NCBI GenBank assembly: GCA_026392045.1
Contig: JAPLCU010000006.1
Location: 1-52,548 of the forward strand
Reading direction: 5' to 3'
DNA: 52,548 nucleotides
Source: Armatimonadota bacterium
GTDB taxonomy: Bacteria > Armatimonadota > UBA5829
The notes under the pieces were generated by a model that saw only the letters and a list, made by a program, of their open reading frames with translations, was not told the DNA's origin and did not search any database. The position numbers and the translations under genes are program-made. Positions 9,563 to 31,889 of the stretch are shown piece after piece; the stretch's first letter is position 1, and the number at the start of each line of letters is the position of its first letter.

Positions 9563-9804
9563 TCAACTTTATTATCACGATTAGCGCAGTGACCGACTGG
9601 CCTCTAACTCCCTGGCTGATTCGTTCCCGTTAATTCCTTCCACACCATGAATGACCTTTGGTAATTATAACATTTTCTGCTAACCAATATGCCTATACGC
9701 CGCTTTTCCTACGGCAAGCATTAGCTGGCTAGGAACCATAACAAATATTTCTTGCATACCAACATGTGAAGTCGCTGCTATCTGGGGAAAACCTACTCAT
9801 CAAG

Positions 9805-11718
9805 TCACCGTCTTTCCTTTAGGTCCAGCACAAAGATGGATCCGTCGTCATATATTCGTTTTCTACTTTGCCCTAGTTCGATTAGTGAACGCTGAAAATC
9901 GAACGTGCTAATTGCTACACTTTGTATCCAATGGTCGGGATAACCGGGCTTGACTCGATCCTTGTAATCATTCCAGCTAAAATTGGCGCTGTTCCTGTAG
10001 GAATATGCCACATATCGGACGTCTTTCACAATTAAATAACGGGACAATGCCTCACCTCCTTTTCCGAAAGGCAGACCTGGAGGCGGGCTTGCTCCACCTG
10101 GCCAGTCAGCAATAAAAACCTGGTGATCACGGAAACCAAGAAGATATGGCTTGTCAAGTCGCGTTAATACCGTCTCACCCTTGGGAACCGATCTAAGGAT
10201 GCGGCGATACCTTGCTGCTGTATTGGCATCATCAAGACTAGGTGCAGTCCGAGAGCTGCGCATGCGCACTCCTGACAGAAGAGTTCCTGAAGCAAATGCA
10301 ATGACCAGACAAAACACCACTAAGAAAGAGTTTGTAGAGACACTGTCATTTCTATCGTGACACAGCCTGACAGATCTCCTAGCATCAGCAAACAACAAAG
10401 CAGACACCAATGCCAGCACGGCCGCGTAGGCAATAGGGAATGTATATCGCGATGCAGCGACTCCGCTCGTTGACAGTGATACTGCTCCCCCGACAGAAGA
10501 AATCATCGGCACGAGCCATCCGTGCGATTCGGACAACTTGCTTCCAAATGCACGAGCATAACCACAAGCCAGCAACAGAACGCCGATCAGAACCATTGAA
10601 TCTAGCGAGCTGACAATAGGCCTTATCGCATTGTGAAAGCTCAATAATCCAGGCGGCAGCATGCTGGAATGGCCGTAGACAGAACCGTGAAAACCACTGC
10701 CGAGCACAGGGTAGAGGAGAGTTCCTGATGAATGCAGCATGGACAGCATCCATGGAAGCAGGAATGCAGCAACAAGAACGGATAGTGATAATAGCTCGCA
10801 TACTACCAATAGTGGCCGTTCCTTGATCTGTGACCACCTCACGATCAGGTGAGTGATTACAATGAATGCAGCAACTGGAATGAATGTTGATTTAAGGGCA
10901 CACATTCCAGCTAGTAGCATGCTTAGCATCACCACGGAGCCCGCTTTCCATTTCTCCTTCGTACCCTGCGTAGACAGCAAAACGTAAGTGGTCAAGAGCA
11001 GGAGCAACCCGCTTACCAGGCTGGAGGAATTCACCTTGGGCATAGCAATACAAAGTGGCGCAGCCACCAGCGTGAGTGTCAGAAAGCGGTTACACTTACA
11101 GTGCGTGCCGATCTCCAGCATCAGAAGAGCCAACAAAAGGAGGCTCACACCCGGGTCCACGACTCCCATGGCTTCATTCGGCAGCCTGCACAAAGCCAAT
11201 GTATGCAAAAACGATTGACCGCCGAGACTTGTGACCAACCTGCGTTCACTAAACGGGTCATCGCCCATTGCACCTGTCTGGAGCATCTTATGAGGAAACA
11301 CCAAGTAGGCGTGGTAGTCGTCGTTATCGTTAAACCCTGTGGTCCAGACGTTACCCATATATGCTGAGCCAGCAAACCCCAGCACTATGACGCATGCGAG
11401 GATCAGCACCTTGTCGCATCTGTACGCCGTGCGAAAGCGTGTGGTGCTGATTGGATTGCGCAGATACGCTCCGATAGCCTCAGGGAGCCACATAACGCAA
11501 CCCAAAAGAACTAGAGCGGTACACGCAACCGGAGATACGAGTTGAAGTAAGTTGAGGACACCACCAATTATGACAAGGGCAGCCATGCCCCACGCACCCT
11601 TTTGTCCCCACCCTGCTGAACTGCCAGGAACAAGGAGACGTGCCAGCAACGAGCCCCATCCGACAAACGAGAATAAGATCAACAATCCCCATAATGCGGA
11701 GGTGAAATACATATTCAT
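9805..11718 (-). CDS. Large multi-spanning membrane protein, GT-C-like
   Basis: This is a protein of about 637 residues with roughly 12 hydrophobic helices and a soluble C-terminal domain of about 150 residues. The first extracytoplasmic loop reads FNDNDDYHAYLVFPHKM. A paired acidic motif at this place is the hallmark of GT-C glycosyltransferases that use polyprenyl-phosphate sugars (ArnT, PMT, GtrC types). It is therefore probably a periplasmic-face glycosyltransferase, possibly using the product of the DPM1-like enzyme; this is inference and no family name is certain. The frame can start at TTG 11742. I prefer ATG 11718 (MNMYFTSALWG), just before the first helix. Confidence 0.55.
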   Translation of the reverse strand: MNMYFTSALWGLLILFSFVGWGSLLARLLVPGSSAGWGQKGAWGMAALVIIGGVLNLLQLVSPVACTALVLLGCVMWLPEAIGAYLRNPISTTRFRTAYRCDKVLILACVIVLGFAGSAYMGNVWTTGFNDNDDYHAYLVFPHKMLQTGAMGDDPFSERRLVTSLGGQSFLHTLALCRLPNEAMGVVDPGVSLLLLALLMLEIGTHCKCNRFLTLTLVAAPLCIAMPKVNSSSLVSGLLLLLTTYVLLSTQGTKEKWKAGSVVMLSMLLAGMCALKSTFIPVAAFIVITHLIVRWSQIKERPLLVVCELLSLSVLVAAFLLPWMLSMLHSSGTLLYPVLGSGFHGSVYGHSSMLPPGLLSFHNAIRPIVSSLDSMVLIGVLLLACGYARAFGSKLSESHGWLVPMISSVGGAVSLSTSGVAASRYTFPIAYAAVLALVSALLFADARRSVRLCHDRNDSVSTNSFLVVFCLVIAFASGTLLSGVRMRSSRTAPSLDDANTAARYRRILRSVPKGETVLTRLDKPYLLGFRDHQVFIADWPGGASPPPGLPFGKGGEALSRYLIVKDVRYVAYSYRNSANFSWNDYKDRVKPGYPDHWIQSVAISTFDFQRSLIELGQSRKRIYDDGSIFVLDLKERR

Positions 11719-22082: not shown

Positions 22083-25000
22083 CTATTTTGCCGATTTGCT
22101 GATTTCAGCGTCGGTTTTTGCGTAATCGTAGACTTTCACGCCCGCGAGGGAACCGGTGAACATGTCGGTTGTGCCTCTGTCTGTGTTCCAGGCTGTGCCG
22201 AGGAACATCGGCATGTTGGCATTGGTGCAGAGGGTGTAGAAGCCTCTGGAGGAAACGAGCTGGCCGTCAGCGTAAAGTCTGGCATTACCTTCTTTCTTGC
22301 CGTCATAGACGAACGCGATATGATGCCATTTGCCCGGTTCTGGGGTCTTGTCTTTCCAACCGAAGTTGCGCGGGTCCCAAAGAGTATTCACGGCTGCGCT
22401 CGAGTAATCCCCGCCCTGACTGTAGCACATCTCCAGAGATCTGTTGATCGTGTATTCAAGATAATTTGTCTTGAATGCCTCACGCGGCGCGAGCGTAAAG
22501 ACCGTCTCGTCACCGCGTATTTGCGGGTTGTAAGCCCACATTTCAATGGTAACGGGATTTATGCCGGTCACGCTTGCGGGAGTATTTATATCTGAGCTCA
22601 TGAATGTGTTCGCGCCATCGAAGGTCACGGCTTTTCGACCGGCAACGGTTTCCACACTCGGTTCAGTCGGGTTTTCAGGGAGCAGCGTGAACTCGCCTCC
22701 AGCAGTTCCCTGGTTCTTCCAATTCGTCAACTTGCCTTTCGGCAGGGTGTCGCAAGTCAGTTTGACGAGCATTTTGGTGTTATCGGGCTTGACGCCGCCG
22801 CCGTCATAGATGGATGCGGCCTCATCTTTACTGACTGCATAACTGAATATGGCAACATCAGAGATGAATCCCGCAAACGCCGATTGCCTGTTGCCAAGCT
22901 CATCCACCAGAGCGCCAACGGAGATTCTGCCGCCGTCTGATATTTGCAGACCAATGCTTTTTTCAGTATTGAGAATGCCGTTAACGTAGATTTTCAGCGA
23001 GCCGCTGGCTCCGCCTGAATATGTATAGACGATATTGTTCCAGAATGTAAGCATTGGCGCGTTATAGCGCCCCTGTTCGGGTCTTGTGACTGGTCCGCCG
23101 TAGCCCACGGTAACGCTGCCGTTTGCTAATGCGCTGGTATCGGTGCCGCGTCCGTAGATGAATTCTATGGGTTTGTCGCTGCTAATACCCCACGATAGCA
23201 TTGTGGCCTTATCGAGAAGATTGTTGTTATACACCCAAAGCGACACGCTGAACGGTTTGTCTCCAACAAGGCTCTCAGGAGTCTTGAACGTTGAAGTCAG
23301 GTACTTGTTCCCGAAGAAACTGACGCCGTTTCGGCCTTCGCAAGTTTCCACCTGAGGAGCGGGCAGGCTGCCGAATGAACCTGCAACGAACTTGCCGCCG
23401 GACTTGCCGATGTTATTCCACTCTTCTAGCTTTCCGTTGGCGAGCTTGGATGCGTCCAGATCGATCAGCAAACCATCATAGCTCTTGAATGACCATACCG
23501 GGCCGCGAGAAAGTTTGCCGTTGGCGCTAACGCCGTCAACTCGCCAGAAGTAGGTTTTGCCGGTCTCAAGTTTCGGAGAGTATGCGCCGATCTTGAGCTT
23601 TCCGGCGTATGCCGCGCCATTCTTCTTAGCTGAAGCAACCTGAGCGGGATCAGTCGATAGATATACATCGAAGTTTTTGCTCACGGTTCGAACACCTGGG
23701 TTCCACGAAAGAGCAGGCGCGCGGCCTGCAACCACTTTCTCGTCTATCGCCGGGCTGGGGTGAGAAGCCAGCATAAGATCGCTGGATGTGTAGTTTTGTT
23801 TAATCTGCTGTGCAGAAAGAGCGCCGCTATGAATCCGCACTTGCGCAATTGCGCCCTTGAAAGAACCGGTCCATTTTTCGCGGCTGCTCATATAAGAGCC
23901 AAATTCCAGTAAGACGCAGCTCCTGGTGGTATCGATTTTGGCCTCTGATATGTATTTTCCATCTATGTATAAACAAATAGTTTTATCTCCAAACACATAG
24001 ACCACATGCTGCCACCTGCCGGGCTTCAGTTTTTCAGATGTGGCATATAGATTCCCCCACCTGAAAATCGGGCCGCCATTATCATTCGAGGCTCGATATA
24101 CCCACATTTCGAATGTGGGCGTATTCATCTTTGGCTTTTTTCCTGTTGAAATGTTTTTGAAAATGTTTATGTCCTCATTGACCTGATCATTATATGCAAA
24201 AAACGACGAAAGCATCCTATCATTATGTGCATTAGGTTCATTCGCCTGTGCCTCATCGCCAAAAGAAACAGCCGTCACGCCGTCGATGACCTTTACATGC
24301 GGGTAGCTCGTTTGCTGCTCGGCGGCATCGTTGTATAACTTTCCGCCATATATTCCTCTGTTTGCCCAAGACCTCAGCCAATTCTTGTTCAGGCTCTTTG
24401 GATAGAGAGGCCTGGTTTGATCTAAGTCCTTGGAATTATAGGCTAGGCATCGGGCATCCAAGTCAACCATAAGCGTACCCGCAACAGCCAGCCTTTCACG
24501 CTTGTAATAATCTTTTTGTTCGTCATAATGTTTGGCGAGTTGAAGAACGCCAAGGTCATAATCATAGACATGGACATTAGCAATCGCCCCGGTGAAGCCT
24601 TGCTTTACGCTGCCGCTTTCGAGCGCGCCGCCGATGATTATTTGTTGATCCGTTGGGATATCCAGCTTAAATTCGCCGGAATTGTCCGCTTTTCCATCGA
24701 CGTAGAGCGTATACTTGCCCTTGCCGTCCTCAAGGCCGCCGCCCATGAAGTTAAACACGATATGGTGCCATGCGCCTGTTGACGGCTTGTTTTTCCAGTT
24801 GATTGTCCTGCCCTGACCGAGGTCAGATGCTATTTTGCCCTTGCCCCAGATGAGACGCGCGCCGTTTCCGGCATCGCCCCAGCTTAGCAGAGCTTCGTTG
24901 TCAGAGACATCTTTGTTTTTATAAGCCCAAAGTTCAACAGACCATGCGTGGTTCTTGATCAGAGACTCGCGGGTGCGCAAATTCCAAGCTAACGCATCAG

Positions 25001-26885
25001 AGCCATTGAATTTAACCGAGGCCACACCACCGACCGTTGCAGTCTCAGGCGATCCCTTGGGCTCAAACTCACCCGTACTCCAGGGGTATTTCTTGAGACC
25101 GAATTTGCCCCAAAACTCGAGACCACCCTGATTTTCCCAGCTTACAATTTTGCCGTACGCATCGGTTTTCAAGCCGACCATCACGTTCAGGTCAATGAGC
25201 AAGTCCCCAGGCCAATACTGCTGCAGGAAGTAGAACATGCGCGGGTCGTTTTGTCTGAATTGCTCACGGCGGCAGATTGCGTCGTCTTCGGTGCCATCGC
25301 TGCAGTAAGCCGATGCTGCGCAGGCCATGTATTCCCACATATTGAGCCCGCCGTAGTCGCCGCTCCAAAGGCCGTCCATCTTGTTTTGCCAGAAGATGTT
25401 AAAGAGCTTGTCTCGGAAGTCGGCTTCAATCTGCTCGCAGCCCCACATGTGGAACTGATGCCCCATCTCATGCACCATAATATTGATGCCCCAGTAGAAT
25501 CCGGGATCGGCAAAGAATGATCTTGCCTGACCGTAGCAGGCCGTGGTCATCTCTGTGAAGCCCAGCCATGGAGGGCCAACGTCATCCAGCCTTGCAGCGA
25601 TATCCAACGCTTGCATTACGTTGACTATATCCGGCCGCTTGCGCATGGTCTTGGCCATTGTATACGCACAGCGCCGCATGGCTTCATCAGGGCATCTGTC
25701 GCGACCAATGACCGGCTGTCCCCAGCCTTCCATAAACTTGCCGTATTCCCCGCTTTGCCTGATTGCCTTGGGGAATGGCTCAGCTACGAGGCCATCGAAT
25801 TCTGGGGTGAAGTAGTCTTTGCTTTCAGCCTTAACCTCAGCAGGTTTCACGGGCGTCGGGGAAACAGGTTTGCCATAGAGCTTAAGAATTGCGCTTTCAT
25901 CAAGCGCTGATGAGTATACTTTGAGATCAGCGATTGCGCCGGTAAAGAACGACTGCGGCCTCATACCGCCTCCTCTGCCGCCGCCAAAGTTACAGCCCAG
26001 AAACATGGCTTTGTCACCAGAAGACGTGCCGCTGCCCTTTACATCTTTTGTAATAGCGAGTTTGCCATCGATATATATGTTAAACTTGCCTTCGCTGGGC
26101 GAATAAACCCATGCTATGTGATGCCACACGTTCATCGCGGGGAAGATTTCCTCGGGGAAAGGGTAACTGCCCAGCGGGCCGGAATATGCGCCGCTGCCGC
26201 CGCGAGTTTCAACGGCATACCTGCCTGCGGTACCATAGCCGAAGTCAGAACCGTTGCTGTCGCCTTCAATTGCGTGCCAAGACATGACGCTTTCTCTGGT
26301 CGAGTCTATTCCAAGCGGACTCGGGCTGTAAACCCAGGCCACAACACTATAAGACCCATTCTCGATAATAGATTTTGGCGCAATGAAGTCGGATACCATT
26401 GCATCGAATTCAAGCGGGACCGCCCACGGGCCAAAGTAGAAATTAACGGCCTTTTTACCTGCGATCTCTTTGACGGTGAGAGGGGTTCTAAGCGCATGGA
26501 AAGCTCCGCCCGCAGCGCCTTTGTTCGCCCACTGCGTGATCGGGCCGAGAGGCAGGTCTTTAGCGGAAATATCTACAATCAAGTTTTGCGCGGGTGCGAT
26601 TGCGGGGTTGCTAAACTTCTCCGGGACCTGATAAATAACGCTCTGAATATACCAGAGCCCCTGGTCGCTAATCTGCCCGGCTGGCACTTTGCGGACAAAG
26701 CCATCCGGCATTTGCAGATATACGAAAGGTTTTTCATATTTGATGAATGTGGCGGTGAAATAAGTCTGATTCATCGCCTGACCATTGAGGGTCCACTCTC
26801 TCGGTTCGATCTTTGCGCTGTTGGCGGCGAATGCCGTCGAACACAAAAGCGCAAGACCGATCAGCATCATGCTTAACTTTCTCAT
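22083..26885 (-). CDS. Giant secreted LamG-repeat protein with zinc metallopeptidase domain
   Basis: The protein has 1600 residues with a signal peptide (1-21). Residues about 27-85 (EPREWTLNG...FVRKVPAGQIS) resemble an SHD1-type small beta domain. Five modules follow, each starting with a segment like LxVDLDAxxLxxGxLxxWxNxGxxGGxF and continuing as a concanavalin-like LamG domain: about 100-335, 560-785, 800-1030, 1138-1375 and 1380-1600. Between the first and second sits a peptidase-like domain with HEMGH at 472-476 and a possible third ligand E518 (MWEYM). A fibronectin III-like domain covers about 1040-1135. It likely binds and cleaves glycoprotein or polysaccharide-linked peptide outside the cell. 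SD AGGAG lies 7 nt before ATG. Confidence 0.8.
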   Translation of the reverse strand: MRKLSMMLIGLALLCSTAFAANSAKIEPREWTLNGQAMNQTYFTATFIKYEKPFVYLQMPDGFVRKVPAGQISDQGLWYIQSVIYQVPEKFSNPAIAPAQNLIVDISAKDLPLGPITQWANKGAAGGAFHALRTPLTVKEIAGKKAVNFYFGPWAVPLEFDAMVSDFIAPKSIIENGSYSVVAWVYSPSPLGIDSTRESVMSWHAIEGDSNGSDFGYGTAGRYAVETRGGSGAYSGPLGSYPFPEEIFPAMNVWHHIAWVYSPSEGKFNIYIDGKLAITKDVKGSGTSSGDKAMFLGCNFGGGRGGGMRPQSFFTGAIADLKVYSSALDESAILKLYGKPVSPTPVKPAEVKAESKDYFTPEFDGLVAEPFPKAIRQSGEYGKFMEGWGQPVIGRDRCPDEAMRRCAYTMAKTMRKRPDIVNVMQALDIAARLDDVGPPWLGFTEMTTACYGQARSFFADPGFYWGINIMVHEMGHQFHMWGCEQIEADFRDKLFNIFWQNKMDGLWSGDYGGLNMWEYMACAASAYCSDGTEDDAICRREQFRQNDPRMFYFLQQYWPGDLLIDLNVMVGLKTDAYGKIVSWENQGGLEFWGKFGLKKYPWSTGEFEPKGSPETATVGGVASVKFNGSDALAWNLRTRESLIKNHAWSVELWAYKNKDVSDNEALLSWGDAGNGARLIWGKGKIASDLGQGRTINWKNKPSTGAWHHIVFNFMGGGLEDGKGKYTLYVDGKADNSGEFKLDIPTDQQIIIGGALESGSVKQGFTGAIANVHVYDYDLGVLQLAKHYDEQKDYYKRERLAVAGTLMVDLDARCLAYNSKDLDQTRPLYPKSLNKNWLRSWANRGIYGGKLYNDAAEQQTSYPHVKVIDGVTAVSFGDEAQANEPNAHNDRMLSSFFAYNDQVNEDINIFKNISTGKKPKMNTPTFEMWVYRASNDNGGPIFRWGNLYATSEKLKPGRWQHVVYVFGDKTICLYIDGKYISEAKIDTTRSCVLLEFGSYMSSREKWTGSFKGAIAQVRIHSGALSAQQIKQNYTSSDLMLASHPSPAIDEKVVAGRAPALSWNPGVRTVSKNFDVYLSTDPAQVASAKKNGAAYAGKLKIGAYSPKLETGKTYFWRVDGVSANGKLSRGPVWSFKSYDGLLIDLDASKLANGKLEEWNNIGKSGGKFVAGSFGSLPAPQVETCEGRNGVSFFGNKYLTSTFKTPESLVGDKPFSVSLWVYNNNLLDKATMLSWGISSDKPIEFIYGRGTDTSALANGSVTVGYGGPVTRPEQGRYNAPMLTFWNNIVYTYSGGASGSLKIYVNGILNTEKSIGLQISDGGRISVGALVDELGNRQSAFAGFISDVAIFSYAVSKDEAASIYDGGGVKPDNTKMLVKLTCDTLPKGKLTNWKNQGTAGGEFTLLPENPTEPSVETVAGRKAVTFDGANTFMSSDINTPASVTGINPVTIEMWAYNPQIRGDETVFTLAPREAFKTNYLEYTINRSLEMCYSQGGDYSSAAVNTLWDPRNFGWKDKTPEPGKWHHIAFVYDGKKEGNARLYADGQLVSSRGFYTLCTNANMPMFLGTAWNTDRGTTDMFTGSLAGVKVYDYAKTDAEISKSAK

Positions 26886-27096
26886 TTTTTACTCCTTGGC
26901 TTGGTAGATGCCATTTTCTCCGCTCGATAATTACTAATACTATCTTGTATGGACAAATCCATTTTACCTCTATAATATGAGAAATAATATCGGTTTTGCT
27001 GAGCCAGTGAGTTATTATCAAAAATCTCGGAGGATGAACGGCCGCGATTATAGAAGGCGCTATTGGTGATTGTATGTGAAGGAGAGTGCGTTTTTG
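26886..27096. promoter_or_regulatory. Divergent promoter region, LamG peptidase / GH127
   Basis: These 211 bp separate two divergent secreted-protein genes and must carry both promoters. The middle (about 26925-27020) is AT-rich. SD sequences are visible on each side (AGGAG for the minus gene, GGAGAG at 27081-27086 for the plus gene). No clear operator was found. Confidence 0.4.
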
Positions 27097-29088
27097 ATGA
27101 AGAGAGTTATGATTTATGCCGTGATTATGAGCATTGCGGTGATCGGAGTGTCCGCGCAGACGCCAGACACACTGCGGGCGAAGTTAAAGGTCACAGACAA
27201 GGTCCCGGCGAAGGCTCGTCCATTTGATCTGAACCAGGTGAAGCTGCTCAATAGCCCTTTCAAACATGCGATGGAGCTTGACGGCAAGTATCTGCTGGAA
27301 TTGGAACTCGACAGGCTTCTTTCAAGGTTCCGCGAGTTCGCCGGTCTTAAGCCGAAAGCAGAGATATACGGTAATGCTGGCAGTTGGGAGGGCGGCAATC
27401 TTTCCGGGCAGACCGCAGGACATTATCTTACGGCCTGTTCGATGATGTATCGCTCGACGGGTGATAAGCGCTATCTGGATCGGGTCAATTACATGATTGA
27501 TGAGCTGGCTGAGGTTCAGAAAGCCAACGGCAACGGCTTTGTTGGCGCTATGCCAAATGGCAAGAAGCTTTTCGCTGAAATGAGCGCGGCAAAGACCAAT
27601 GAGCAAATGGATAAGGCCTATAGCGATAATGAGGGCGGGGTGCCGTGGTACAACATGCACAAGACATTTGCCGGTCTGCGGGATGCTTACCTGCTTTGTG
27701 GCAATGAAAAAGCCAAAGATATATTGATCAAGCTCGCGGATTGGGTCTGTGATTGGCAGAAGGATATTCCCGAGGAAGTTTTTCAGCACATGCTTGATAT
27801 CGAACACGGCGGCATCAATGAGTCTCTGGCAGATGCCTATGCAATAAGCGGCAACCCCAAACATTTGGAAGCGGCAAAACGTTTTTATCATCACCGCATG
27901 CTCGATCCTCTCAAAGCTCACGAGGATAAGCTCGGGGGCAACCATGCTAACACACAAATTCCAAAATTCATCGGAGCGGCTCGTATTTATGAGCTGACGA
28001 AATTAAGTGATTTCCGCACTATTGCGAGCTTTTCCTGGGACACTATTCTTAAGAATCATACCTATGTGATCGGAGGAAATAGCTGCTACGAATATTTCGG
28101 CGATCCGGGTAAGCTCAACGATAGAATCACCCCAAATACCACCGAAACATGCAACACATACAATATGCTCAAGCTCACGGAACACCTGTTCCAATGGACG
28201 GCCGATGCGAAATACGCCGACTACTACGAGCGCGGGCTTTATAACCACATTCTGGCATCGCAGAGCCCGAGCACGGGTATGATGTGCTACTATGTTGCCC
28301 TGAAATCGGGCCATGTTAAGAAGTTCAGCACTCCCTTTGATTCATTCTGGTGCTGTGTGGGAACTGGCATCGAAAACCACGTAAAATACGGCCAGGGCAT
28401 CTATTATCACGACGACAAGAGCCTTTACATCAATCTATTTATCCCATCCGAGCTGAATTGGAGTGAAAAAGGCTTCAAGCTCAAGCAGGAAACCGATCTG
28501 CCGATGACAGATATCGTGAGGTTTACTGTCACCTGCACCAAACCCACCGTGCTCAAGCTTATGGTGCGGCAGCCGGCGTGGGCTTTTGATGGAATCACTG
28601 CAAAAGTCAACGGCAAACCGTTCGCTTCCGCCAATAAACCTTCGAGCTATCTTGCGTTATCTAAAACATGGAAAACTGGCGATAAGATCGAAGTTAAGCT
28701 GCCGATGAGGCTCTACACCGAATATGTGCTGGATAACAAAGAACGAATGGCCGTGCTCTATGGCCCGATTGTCCTCGCGGGTAGGGTTGAGCAGGCAGAC
28801 CCTGACAAGCCGATGACTGTGCTGGTTACGGAAGGTCGGCCCGCTAAAGATTGGGTCAAGCGAGTTCCCGGCAAGCTCGAATTTGTTACGAGCGGGGTAG
28901 GAAAGCCGAGCGATATAACCCTTGTGCCGTTCTACGCGATTGACTCTGAGCCCTACGCAATCTATTGGGACACATTCAAAGCGAGTGATTGGGCGAAAAA
29001 GCAGGTTGAATTTGTCGAAAAACAGCGTCAACAAGAAGCGCTTGAGGCAAGAACGGTCGACAATTTCTCACCAGGCGAAATGCAATAA
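27097..29088 (+). CDS. GH127 beta-L-arabinofuranosidase (DUF1680), frameshifted near its 3' end
   Basis: This secreted enzyme removes beta-linked L-arabinofuranose. Counting from ATG 27097, family zinc ligands are visible as E350-x-C352 (ETCNTYN) and C419-C420 (FWCCVG), where the first of the paired cysteines is the nucleophile in HypBA1. E332 (SCYEYFG) fits the acid/base. The frame could open at TTG 27070, but ATG 27097 has an SD and gives a clean signal peptide ending VSAQ. The protein ends at TVDNFSPGEMQ. Homologues continue from that point into a C-terminal beta domain, which here lies in another frame (29083-29404). The catalytic domain itself looks complete. Confidence 0.9.
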   Translation: MKRVMIYAVIMSIAVIGVSAQTPDTLRAKLKVTDKVPAKARPFDLNQVKLLNSPFKHAMELDGKYLLELELDRLLSRFREFAGLKPKAEIYGNAGSWEGGNLSGQTAGHYLTACSMMYRSTGDKRYLDRVNYMIDELAEVQKANGNGFVGAMPNGKKLFAEMSAAKTNEQMDKAYSDNEGGVPWYNMHKTFAGLRDAYLLCGNEKAKDILIKLADWVCDWQKDIPEEVFQHMLDIEHGGINESLADAYAISGNPKHLEAAKRFYHHRMLDPLKAHEDKLGGNHANTQIPKFIGAARIYELTKLSDFRTIASFSWDTILKNHTYVIGGNSCYEYFGDPGKLNDRITPNTTETCNTYNMLKLTEHLFQWTADAKYADYYERGLYNHILASQSPSTGMMCYYVALKSGHVKKFSTPFDSFWCCVGTGIENHVKYGQGIYYHDDKSLYINLFIPSELNWSEKGFKLKQETDLPMTDIVRFTVTCTKPTVLKLMVRQPAWAFDGITAKVNGKPFASANKPSSYLALSKTWKTGDKIEVKLPMRLYTEYVLDNKERMAVLYGPIVLAGRVEQADPDKPMTVLVTEGRPAKDWVKRVPGKLEFVTSGVGKPSDITLVPFYAIDSEPYAIYWDTFKASDWAKKQVEFVEKQRQQEALEARTVDNFSPGEMQ

Positions 29089-29416: not shown

Positions 29417-29440
29417 GTCCAGGGGCGAAAGCCCCTGGAC
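29417..29440. terminator. Bidirectional hairpin terminator between convergent genes
   Basis: A perfect 10-bp stem (GTCCAGGGGC / GCCCCTGGAC) with a GAAA loop has AAAAA before it and ATAAATAA after it on the plus strand. It therefore has a T-run on the minus strand, where it ends the sigma-PheS gene, and it also follows the GH127 tail. Confidence 0.75.
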
Positions 29441-29541: not shown

Positions 29542-30801
29542 CTAACGATTATCCGGCACATAAGGCGGTTTCCAGAACGTGCGAATATCATCTATATCAA
29601 GAGCGACCATCGCGCAGCGCTCCAGGCCAAAAGCAAAACCCATCGCGGTGTATTTTTTCGGGTTTAGCCCCGCTTTGGTCACCCACTCATCCTTGACAAC
29701 TCCCGCGCCAGCCACTCTAAACCAACTGCCGCGCCAGAGCGCTTCATAGTGCCAAATATCGCCTAGGAAAGGAAAACGGATACTATCTCCGCGGCGCAAT
29801 TCAAATCCCGGCAATAACCGATTGGCGACGTCGCGCACCGCCTCATCCAAATTCGGCCCCGTTCCGGCCTCTTTAACCCACAGCATTTCCGCCTGATGGT
29901 GAGCTATTAGTCGGGTTTCGCTCTCTTCTTCACGAAACACCCTGCCGGTTGTTATTCGCTTGCACGGTCCTCCACCATCGCGCAACCATTTATCCACCAT
30001 CAGAGACGTAAATTCGTATCTCATCACCTGTCGATCGTTGATGATATAGGTGAATGGTGGCAAGTCTCCGCCGTCTGCCAAGAAGATATCACGCTCGCAG
30101 ACCTCGTCAAACTCCACTACTTCAGCATCAGCAAAGTATGATTTGAATGTCTGCCATAACTGCCTTACGGGGTGGTCTGCTATCTCCATCGGCCTGGGCA
30201 TTTCAAGGAGCAGGCGAATCCGCTCCGGGAAGTCATCAGACAAAGAATGAGTCTTCAATTCATCGTTTACCATTTGGACCATCCTCTCTTTGAGCCGCGT
30301 TCGAGATGAGTGCAGACGGTTATTGACCGTCGTCACCGGCATCTCAAGGAACGCAGCAATGTCTTTTTGCGTGTAACCATTGATGTAGAACAGGGTGGTC
30401 ACGGTGCGTTCGTTTTGCGGGAGATTTCGGATGGCATCCAGCACGTTTTGCCTTATCTCACGTGACTCCACAATTGCCTCCGGCCCAGGACTTGCGGCAG
30501 GTATTTCAACCACCGAATCCAGAGGCACGGTCGATAGACGCTTGCCGCGCGTGATGCGGTCGCAGCGCTTGAAGACGATTCTTCTGAACCAGCCCGGGAA
30601 AGCGGCTGGCTCGCGCAGCGCGTCAAGGTCGCGATACGCCTGTAGAAACGCCTCCTGCGCAGCATCCTCGGCAAGGTGAAAATCACCGAGTACCGAGTAA
30701 GCATAAGCAAGCGCCATGTCCTGAAACCGCCCGACTATCGCGCTGAATGCATCCATATCTCCAATCTTCGCCTGATCAACAAGCGTTTTCAGTTCGTCCA
30801 T
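29542..30801 (-). CDS. ECF-type sigma factor fused to a PheS-like aminoacyl-tRNA synthetase core
   Basis: Counting from ATG 30801 (AGGAG 5 nt upstream; an in-frame GTG at 30807 overlaps that SD), the protein has 419 residues. Residues about 17-85 are sigma region 2 (LGDFHLAEDAAQEAFLQAY, FPGWFRRIVFKRC). Residues about 118-172 are region 4 (LPQNERTVTTLFYINGYTQ, then a helix-turn-helix). Residues about 209-419 match the class II core of PheRS alpha: an HPVRQLWQTF helix, motif 2 GRVFREEE (286-293) with HHQAE (301-305), FPF (343-345) where PheS binds the Phe side chain, FRVAGAGVV, and motif 3 GFAFGLER (388-395) followed by DIDDIR. PheS's tRNA-binding coiled coil is absent. I infer a sigma factor that senses Phe, an adenylate or a related ligand. 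Confidence 0.9.
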   Translation of the reverse strand: MDELKTLVDQAKIGDMDAFSAIVGRFQDMALAYAYSVLGDFHLAEDAAQEAFLQAYRDLDALREPAAFPGWFRRIVFKRCDRITRGKRLSTVPLDSVVEIPAASPGPEAIVESREIRQNVLDAIRNLPQNERTVTTLFYINGYTQKDIAAFLEMPVTTVNNRLHSSRTRLKERMVQMVNDELKTHSLSDDFPERIRLLLEMPRPMEIADHPVRQLWQTFKSYFADAEVVEFDEVCERDIFLADGGDLPPFTYIINDRQVMRYEFTSLMVDKWLRDGGGPCKRITTGRVFREEESETRLIAHHQAEMLWVKEAGTGPNLDEAVRDVANRLLPGFELRRGDSIRFPFLGDIWHYEALWRGSWFRVAGAGVVKDEWVTKAGLNPKKYTAMGFAFGLERCAMVALDIDDIRTFWKPPYVPDNR

Positions 30802-30927
30802 GATCACTCCTGTGTTTTTGGAAGGCCTTCTATATTATAAGACCCAATTGGCGAGAGTTATCTTTAACTAGCTTGAGATAGCGTTTTGGAGATAGGAGGA
30901 AAATAAGATTTGGCAGAATCAAATCAG

Positions 30928-30971: not shown

Positions 30972-31889
30972 CTACCGAGCTAATCGAAATCCGCTGATGA
31001 CATCACTTTCGCTCGGCTTGCTGCCAAAGCCCCTGCAGGCGCATCGGCAGCTGCTCTCAGCATCGCCCCAACTGCCGCCCCGCAGGACACGATAGCCGCC
31101 GCTTGCAGGCCCTTGTGGGTCGTTTTTGGGGCTGTTTGCGTAATATGTGCTGTTATGCCAGTCCTTGCACCATTCCCACACATTACCAGCCATGTCCTGA
31201 CAGCCAGACGGGCTTTTACCACTCGGAAAACTGCCCACTGAGGCCGTTTGGTAACCATTCTTGCCTCCGCCTGCGGAATTGTTGTCACATAGGCTGTTGC
31301 AATTTCCTGAGGCCCATTCATCACCCCATGGGTAAATATTGGCGTGAGTCCCCGTCCAACGGGCGGCTCTTTCCCACTGAGCCTCGGTAGGCAGATGACC
31401 GCCAGCCCAATTGCAGAAAGCCTCAGCTTCATAATATGTCACACCAACCACCGGGTGGTTATCTGTCTGGGTGAACGATTTGCCATTTATCCAGGTCTGT
31501 TTTGCAGCCCAATAAGCAGGTGTGGAGCGTTTTTTCGATATTTTCCATTTCCAGCCCGCGGTTGACCAGTATGCCTTTTTTAAGTAACCGCCTGCTTTCA
31601 TAAACTTGCGGAATTGCCCACGGGTTACCTCATACTTGCCTATGGAATAGGCGCGGAGAGTTACGGAGCGCTGCGGCATTTCATTTGAGTCTTCTAAGTC
31701 GCCAGCCATAGTCGCATCATTACCAACGCCCGAATTTCCCATCAGGAACGAACCTGCGGGGATAGAAATCATCTTCAGTTCAGGAATTGGATTTGAGGGC
31801 AGCTTTGCTGCGAAACACGCCCCGCACAATGTTACTGCGAACAGCGCAACCATAAAAGTGACCGCTATCGCTATTTGTTTGCTTCTCAA
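30972..31889 (-). CDS. Secreted SUMF1/FGE-sulfatase-fold protein
   Basis: The protein has 305 residues with a signal peptide (LCGACFA). The SUMF1 fold is clear: IPAGSFLMGN, YSIGKYEVTRGQF, HPVVGVTYYEAEAFCNWAG, LPTEAQWERAAR, YPWGDEW, DMAGNVWEWCKDW, VLRGGSWGD and SGFRLAR. True formylglycine-generating enzymes need a Cys pair just after RGGS. Here the stretch after RGGSWGDAESS holds a CRCACR cluster that does not line up with that pair, so it is more likely a non-catalytic relative used for binding. The start is TTG with GAGGAGG 8-9 nt upstream. It works outside the cytoplasm; no sulfatase is nearby. Confidence 0.85.
   Translation of the reverse strand: MRSKQIAIAVTFMVALFAVTLCGACFAAKLPSNPIPELKMISIPAGSFLMGNSGVGNDATMAGDLEDSNEMPQRSVTLRAYSIGKYEVTRGQFRKFMKAGGYLKKAYWSTAGWKWKISKKRSTPAYWAAKQTWINGKSFTQTDNHPVVGVTYYEAEAFCNWAGGHLPTEAQWERAARWTGTHANIYPWGDEWASGNCNSLCDNNSAGGGKNGYQTASVGSFPSGKSPSGCQDMAGNVWEWCKDWHNSTYYANSPKNDPQGPASGGYRVLRGGSWGDAESSCRCACRGFGSKPSESDVISGFRLAR

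Follow-up and report, generated by a model that had tools for sequence, protein, structure and literature searches.

A predicted ECF sigma factor joined to a diverged PheRS alpha-type synthetase core in Armatimonadota and three further phyla

What might a protein do that combines, in one chain, a transcription initiation factor and the core of an aminoacyl-tRNA synthetase? This question is raised by a locus from an Armatimonadota bacterium (assembly GCA_026392045.1, contig JAPLCU010000006.1), situated in the stretch of 52,548 nucleotides that was analyzed here as a whole and is called the window. The initial annotation, made from the sequence alone, had recognized at 29542-30801 a sigma factor fused to the core of the phenylalanyl-tRNA synthetase (PheRS) alpha chain, PheS. 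Its coordinates are correct, but they apply to the minus strand, where a single open frame of 419 codons covers 29545-30801 and is followed by a stop that ends at 29542; read on the plus strand, the corresponding frame holds 10 stops. The gene and its parts are as follows.

29542..30801, minus strand: sigma-PheS fusion gene, 419 amino acids, ATG at 30801, stop included (Pfam and homologues)
30544..30735, minus strand: sigma region 2, residues 23-86 (Pfam PF04542; alignment with SigW, 5wuq)
30286..30450, minus strand: sigma region 4, residues 118-172 (Pfam PF08281/PF04545)
30190..30246, minus strand: junction helix, about residues 186-204, FPERIRLLLEMP (model and alignment of 13 fused proteins)
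29551..30183, minus strand: PheRS-alpha-like class II synthetase core, residues 207-417 (Pfam, 3pco alignment, Foldseek and superposition)
29887..29946, minus strand: motif 2 region, residues 286-305 (GRVFR...HHQAE), with R290, Q303 and E305 kept and the His replaced by R297
29617..29640, minus strand: motif 3, residues 388-395 (GFAFGLER), with R395 kept

A hidden Markov model search of the 419-residue protein matched Sigma70_r2 (E-value 7e-10, residues 23-86), Sigma70_r4_2 (3.3e-11, 118-170) and tRNA-synt_2d (4.5e-26, 161-412), all of them far above the cut-off and in one frame, which bears out the proposed succession of sigma regions and PheRS alpha-type core. Regions 2 and 4 lie within one short sigma module, which resembles SigW and SigE type extracytoplasmic function (ECF) factors most closely and scores 76.7 bits with the ECF sigma model TIGR02937 (cut-off 42.9); the protein is a predicted ECF (group 4) sigma factor. 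The linker towards the synthetase half contains neither a stop nor a frameshift, and the full-length architecture is found in 12 other genomes. For the C-terminal half PheRS alpha is the closest relative. An AlphaFold2 model built on an alignment of 46 sequences reached a mean predicted local distance difference test score (pLDDT) of 87.7, whereby the linker between sigma regions 2 and 4 (residues 87-104) is the sole poorly predicted part. The top Foldseek matches of this model are PheRS alpha chains, and VIA-align superposed residues 207-417 on PheRS alpha of E. coli (3pco_A) with a Z score of 24.0 and a root-mean-square deviation of 2.6 Å over 209 residues. Thus, the class II catalytic-core fold is present in the model, and the structure prediction, which could have spoken against the PheRS-alpha assignment, upheld it. 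As had been proposed, the N-terminal tRNA-binding coiled coil of PheS is absent, and both the Pfam matches and the model have the sigma regions at residues 1-175 instead.

The active site was analyzed residue by residue, whereby the E. coli numbering (in brackets) follows the 3pco alignment and the known functional positions of PheRS. All of the motifs quoted in the initial annotation are present, namely GRVFREEE, HHQAE (with Q303 and E305), FPF at 343-345, FRVAGAGVV, GFAFGLER and DIDDIR. The window protein retains R290 (R195), Q303 (Q208), E305 (E210), F343 and F345 (F248 and F250), the motif 3 arginine R395, and the LR and GxG features of PheS. Thus, R290 and R395 provide the pair of motif 2 and motif 3 arginines by which adenylate-forming class II ligases are recognized. 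Thr-Arg does indeed stand in place of the Thr-His of PheS (T296-R297, i.e., R297 for H202), and further substitutions are H301 for F206, L346 and G347 for T251 and E252, and G388 for A294. The HPAR loop is missing, R297 stands for the motif-2 His, and FPF is kept but the E252 position is occupied by G347, so that the combination of HPAR loop, motif-2 His and FPF-T/V-E-P pocket typical of PheS is not found. Residues were counted over the 13 fused proteins, and the comparison set comprised 19 PheS rows, one being left out because of a misread frame. On the ATP side, the motif 2 Arg, the HQxE Gln and the HQ pair are each kept in 12/13, an acidic residue at the E305 position in 13/13 and the motif 3 Arg in 11/13. 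The protein from genome G152 lost both arginines and HQ, that from G645 the motif 3 Arg. For the pocket, the counts are 3/13 at F250, 4/13 at E252, 2/13 at A294 and 2/13 for the motif-2 His. Judged from the alignment, most of the features that would face ATP and the amino group are preserved, and those of the side-chain pocket are not. Since this pocket is not kept, the ligand is likely to be something other than phenylalanine, or to differ between members, and the phenylalanine sensing that had been considered is not supported. Compared with PheS (TIGR00468), the window protein shares the catalytic-core fold, LR, the motif 2 Arg, HQxE, GxG and the motif 3 Arg, but is without the coiled coil, the HPAR loop, the motif-2 His and E252, belongs to a separate clade (see below) and scores 74.7 bits with the NCBIfam equivalog model, far from its cut-off of 237.45.

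The two halves meet in a helix that has no counterpart in PheS. In the model, FPERIRLLLEMP is helical at residues 191-200, and apart from the sigma module few parts of the protein are conserved as well, with I195 in 12/13 and L198, L199 and P202 each in 13/13 of the fused proteins. This near-invariance contrasts with the variable catalytic and pocket residues, and the helix is a likely coupling element between the halves. A related stretch begins another type of extension in sibling sigma factors. Taken together, we read the protein, with a probability of about 60%, as a one-piece ECF sigma factor that is gated by a repurposed PheRS core binding a small ligand, which is probably not phenylalanine. 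The N-terminal half would bind RNA polymerase and promoter. The C-terminal half, a diverged PheRS core that lost the coiled coil and most of the Phe pocket, would be reused as a small-molecule receptor, whereby the ligand is probably an amino acid or a similar carboxylate, perhaps together with ATP. Ligand binding could be relayed via the junction helix to sigma region 4, so that promoter recognition would be allowed or blocked; such gating has been proposed for ECF groups in which the C-terminal extension is of another kind. Its own gene would probably be among the targets of the sigma factor. If this is true, a core translation enzyme has come to serve as the sensory part of a transcription initiation factor within a single chain, which would need neither a membrane protein nor an anti-sigma factor. 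Thanks to its small size and its predicted promoter, the system can be tested directly, and sigma factors that carry their own ligand gate are useful tools.

The fusion recurs in further genomes. A pattern scan over 84,980 species detected two fusions outside the lineage and one in the same family. Subsequent profile searches, phylum by phylum, yielded at least 4 fusions in 291 genomes of Armatimonadota, all within the family of the window, at least 3 in 68 genomes of the phylum of a Hydrogenedentota record (L002), at least 3 in 392 of that of a Planctomycetota record (L003) and at least 3 in 64 of that of a Latescibacterota record (L005). The strict profile search found none in 400 genomes of the phylum of the Chloroflexi record L008 and none in 347 of that of the Acidobacteria record L009. 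This amounts to at least 13 fusions over four phyla, each in one open frame; the counts are lower bounds, as strict cut-offs were needed to exclude true PheS, which reached up to 137 bits, and scoring was confined to the top candidates of each genome. The same junction and synthetase half also follow those four sigma halves that are farthest from the one in the window (34-58 bits). In a tree with 28 PheS sequences, the 13 synthetase halves form one clade with 100/100 support on a long branch, whereby the inner order is unsure; an earlier tree had set 7 fused synthetase halves against 50 PheS. In the sigma tree, the fused members are scattered among factors with other extensions. However, a single fused clade was not rejected (p 0.052), and thus we do not claim swapping of sigma modules. 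For the closest pair, G007 and G002, the ratio of nonsynonymous to synonymous substitution rates (dN/dS) is 0.05 in the sigma half and 0.12 in the synthetase half, the latter being a rough value because synonymous sites are near saturation (dS 1.7). Such values indicate that both halves are maintained by selection; purifying selection is estimated for both, and the synthetase half is the faster-evolving one. An ordinary pheS above the curated cut-off is present in 5/6 hosts checked, including that of the window, and the sixth (G014) has an assembly that is 80% complete. Housekeeping duty is thus not the reason for the fusion. A duplicate of true PheS was rejected because of the equivalog score, the lack of several PheS parts and the presence of a normal pheS at another locus. 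No relative was found among the viral contigs scanned, and a viral origin was rejected on this evidence, which is weak since the patterns were degenerate. The record L004, from genome G152, is titled Nitrospiraceae, yet the genome was placed in the phylum of L002, so that title or binning may be wrong.

Within the family of the window, all four fused genes have an upstream block in common. The signals around the gene are the following.

30838..30867, minus strand: promoter-like two-box element TTAAAGAT-N12-TTGGGTCTTA, common to sibling sigma genes
30820..30831, minus strand: near-palindrome AGAAGGCCTTCC, directly downstream of the -10-like box
30807..30811, minus strand: Shine-Dalgarno-like AGGAG upstream of the ATG (sequence)
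29417..29440, minus strand: terminator-like stem-loop 3' of the gene, weak, with 3 such structures found in the stretch against 1.7 expected by chance

The element TTAAAGAT-N12-TTGGGTCTTA is the sole copy with fewer than three mismatches in the genome of the window. Many sibling sigma genes from several phyla have a corresponding motif, GGTAACCT-N12-ATGGGTCTTA, about 50-70 bases upstream of their start. The spacing is 12 in 26/26 top sites; since this was the shortest spacing tested, the box edges are inexact. In leave-one-out scoring, 23 real upstream regions reached at least 15 bits, compared to 1.6 on average and at most 5 regions per shuffled set. The motif also precedes a fused gene that was outside the training set (L150), where 0/500 shuffles scored as high. 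It is absent from the four fused genes whose sigma halves are distant and from five solo ECF genes in the genome of the window, and the contig of L149 ends too close to the gene for a call. The putative promoter thus tracks the sigma module rather than the extension. This is the pattern to be expected of a promoter that is read by the sigma factor itself, and its sharing with sibling sigma genes suggests self-activation. Furthermore, about ten members from several phyla (besides the window L003, L005, L008, L021, L028, L029, L031, L053, L070, and L001) have the word AGAAGGCCTTCT 4-7 bases past the -10-like box. It is supported by the word match, a general palindrome test being negative, and it may represent an operator, an extended promoter or the 5' end of the RNA.

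A paralogue in the genome of the window (C200:56883-57470; L021:535-2118) carries, behind its sigma module, an extension with the fold of CcbD, AziU3 and CtaG (Z 17-18.4 over 268-288 residues), and this type also occurs in L053, L031, L006, L007, L010, L032, L034, and L038. The cysteine that precedes the first helix is missing from 6/9 of these extensions, and their VxxGYD/VTGFD stretch is without His. If these Cys and His positions are the catalytic ones, as presumed from the type of fold and not from a superposition, the CcbD-like extensions seem to lack the likely catalytic residues in most members. The genome of the window thus encodes two sibling sigma factors, both joined to a former enzyme whose site is damaged. 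This favors sensing over catalysis, and in this respect the sensor role that had been suggested for the synthetase fold is accepted as likely. A network that joined the PheS-like and CcbD-like extension types was discarded because the link came from the shared linker alone. Other siblings combine the same sigma module with ankyrin-repeat arrays (L009, L011-L015, L017, L035, L037, and L042, from Acidobacteriota, Armatimonadota and others) or with long domains without any Pfam or NCBIfam match.

Several comparisons bear on how the gated sigma factor is to be classified. ECF factors without anti-sigma partners, in which C-terminal domains act as sensors, are known as ECF41, ECF42, and ECF238 (PMC8999054). 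The fused proteins share with them the sigma2-sigma4 core, the lack of an adjacent anti-sigma gene and an extra C-terminal domain that presumably controls activity, but differ in having a class II synthetase core as their extension. The protein fits a known class with a new kind of extension: the additional domain is present, and no conserved anti-sigma neighbor was found. Among open frames compared, not all of them annotated, no neighbor is common across lineages, and sister genomes alone share neighbors. The words synthetase and tRNA do not occur in the text of the cited review. The stand-alone PheS-related ligases mentioned in the initial annotation would fit SrmL (NF051887), which appears among the best NCBIfam matches, where no sigma fusion is listed. 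SrmL is likewise a PheS-derived core outside PheRS. However, the fused proteins score 40-98 bits (window protein 57.9) and thus stay far under the cut-off of 300, and the match is limited to the synthetase half. A search of open-access papers, with subscription literature and the full ECF classification outside its range, returned no mention of a sigma-synthetase fusion. To our knowledge, no sigma factor with an aminoacyl-tRNA synthetase core has been described. HisZ and GCN2 are examples of a synthetase fold reused for regulation, but both are derived from HisRS and contain no sigma factor.

Three observations weigh against a sigma factor gated by simple ligand binding. The model, in which the mutual placement of the halves is tentative, has a predicted template modelling score of just 0.71. 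A genome scan with the gene's own promoter revealed no further targets above background, sites with three mismatches being as frequent as in the backward control, although a sigma factor needs targets other than its own gene. Finally, both ATP-site arginines are kept in 11/13 proteins, which exceeds the need of a plain amino-acid receptor. It could also be that, following a BirA-like logic, the synthetase half still makes an acyl-adenylate from ATP and a carboxylate other than phenylalanine and that the bound adenylate, not the free ligand, switches the sigma half. The conservation of the motif 2 Arg, HQ, the acidic E305 position and the motif 3 Arg would agree with this, and a precedent is given by group II biotin protein ligases (PMC4016012, PMC6391492), whose adenylate-forming core is joined to a DNA-binding regulator, whereas the partner here is a sigma factor. 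On the other hand, the motif-2 His is lost in 11/13, the HPAR loop is gone and the E252 position is altered in 9/13. The motif 3 Arg is missing in G152 and G645, so that the chemistry is no family-wide need, and the earlier idea of a ligase for another substrate may still hold for most members but is weakened by these two. We regard such an adenylate switch as a tentative alternative. A broader version is likewise doubtful, namely that the sigma factor reads metabolism through a synthetase active site, whereby an acyl-adenylate of some carboxylate, made or bound by the PheRS-derived half, would set promoter use. The protein would then belong to a wider ECF set in which one promoter signature and sigma module are combined with different former enzymes as sensors, such as the PheRS core here and the CcbD/CtaG-like fold of the paralogue.

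A role as a mere protein surface appears improbable. The PheRS-alpha fold pairs with PheT in the genuine enzyme and might here serve partner binding or dimerization, perhaps with PheRS itself, around an empty pocket; the variable pocket residues, the gutted site in G152 and the ankyrin arrays of the siblings, a typical protein-binding module, would agree with this. However, a pure surface role would not preserve HQxE and the ATP-site arginines in most members. Synthetase-like sensors provide a general precedent for a GCN2-type sensor that reads the charge of tRNA-Phe, but here a sigma domain stands in place of the tRNA-binding coiled coil, no anticodon-binding part or pheT is attached, and no conserved neighbor such as pheT exists. 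The sensing of tRNA state, which had been considered earlier, is therefore not supported, and we hold it to be very unlikely. An assembly artefact or a dying fusion gene has a negligible probability: the sources are mostly metagenome-assembled genomes and G152 contains a remnant, but 13 occurrences in unrelated assemblies, each in one open frame, and dN/dS well below 1 rule out chance or artefact. This remnant (L126, about 9675-9818; G152:C286:21171-21308) comprises 45 C-terminal residues of a second sigma-PheS fusion that is nearest to that of G197; no sigma part lies nearby, and we read it as a decayed copy.

Some minor observations complete the picture of the siblings and the locus. In L016:10577-12073, the sigma module is followed by a weak match to GNAT acetyltransferases (E 0.0044, below the Pfam cut-off), and L039 of genome G145 harbors tandem sigma-module genes with related extensions (3-1376 and 1423-2688). 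In the window, the genes that flank the fusion gene were named by eye: 30972-31889 resembles a gene for a formylglycine-generating enzyme and 27070-29088 one for a glycoside hydrolase. Furthermore, 22083-26885 encodes a secreted-looking protein of 1600 amino acids in which repeated LamG-like stretches were likewise recognized by eye.
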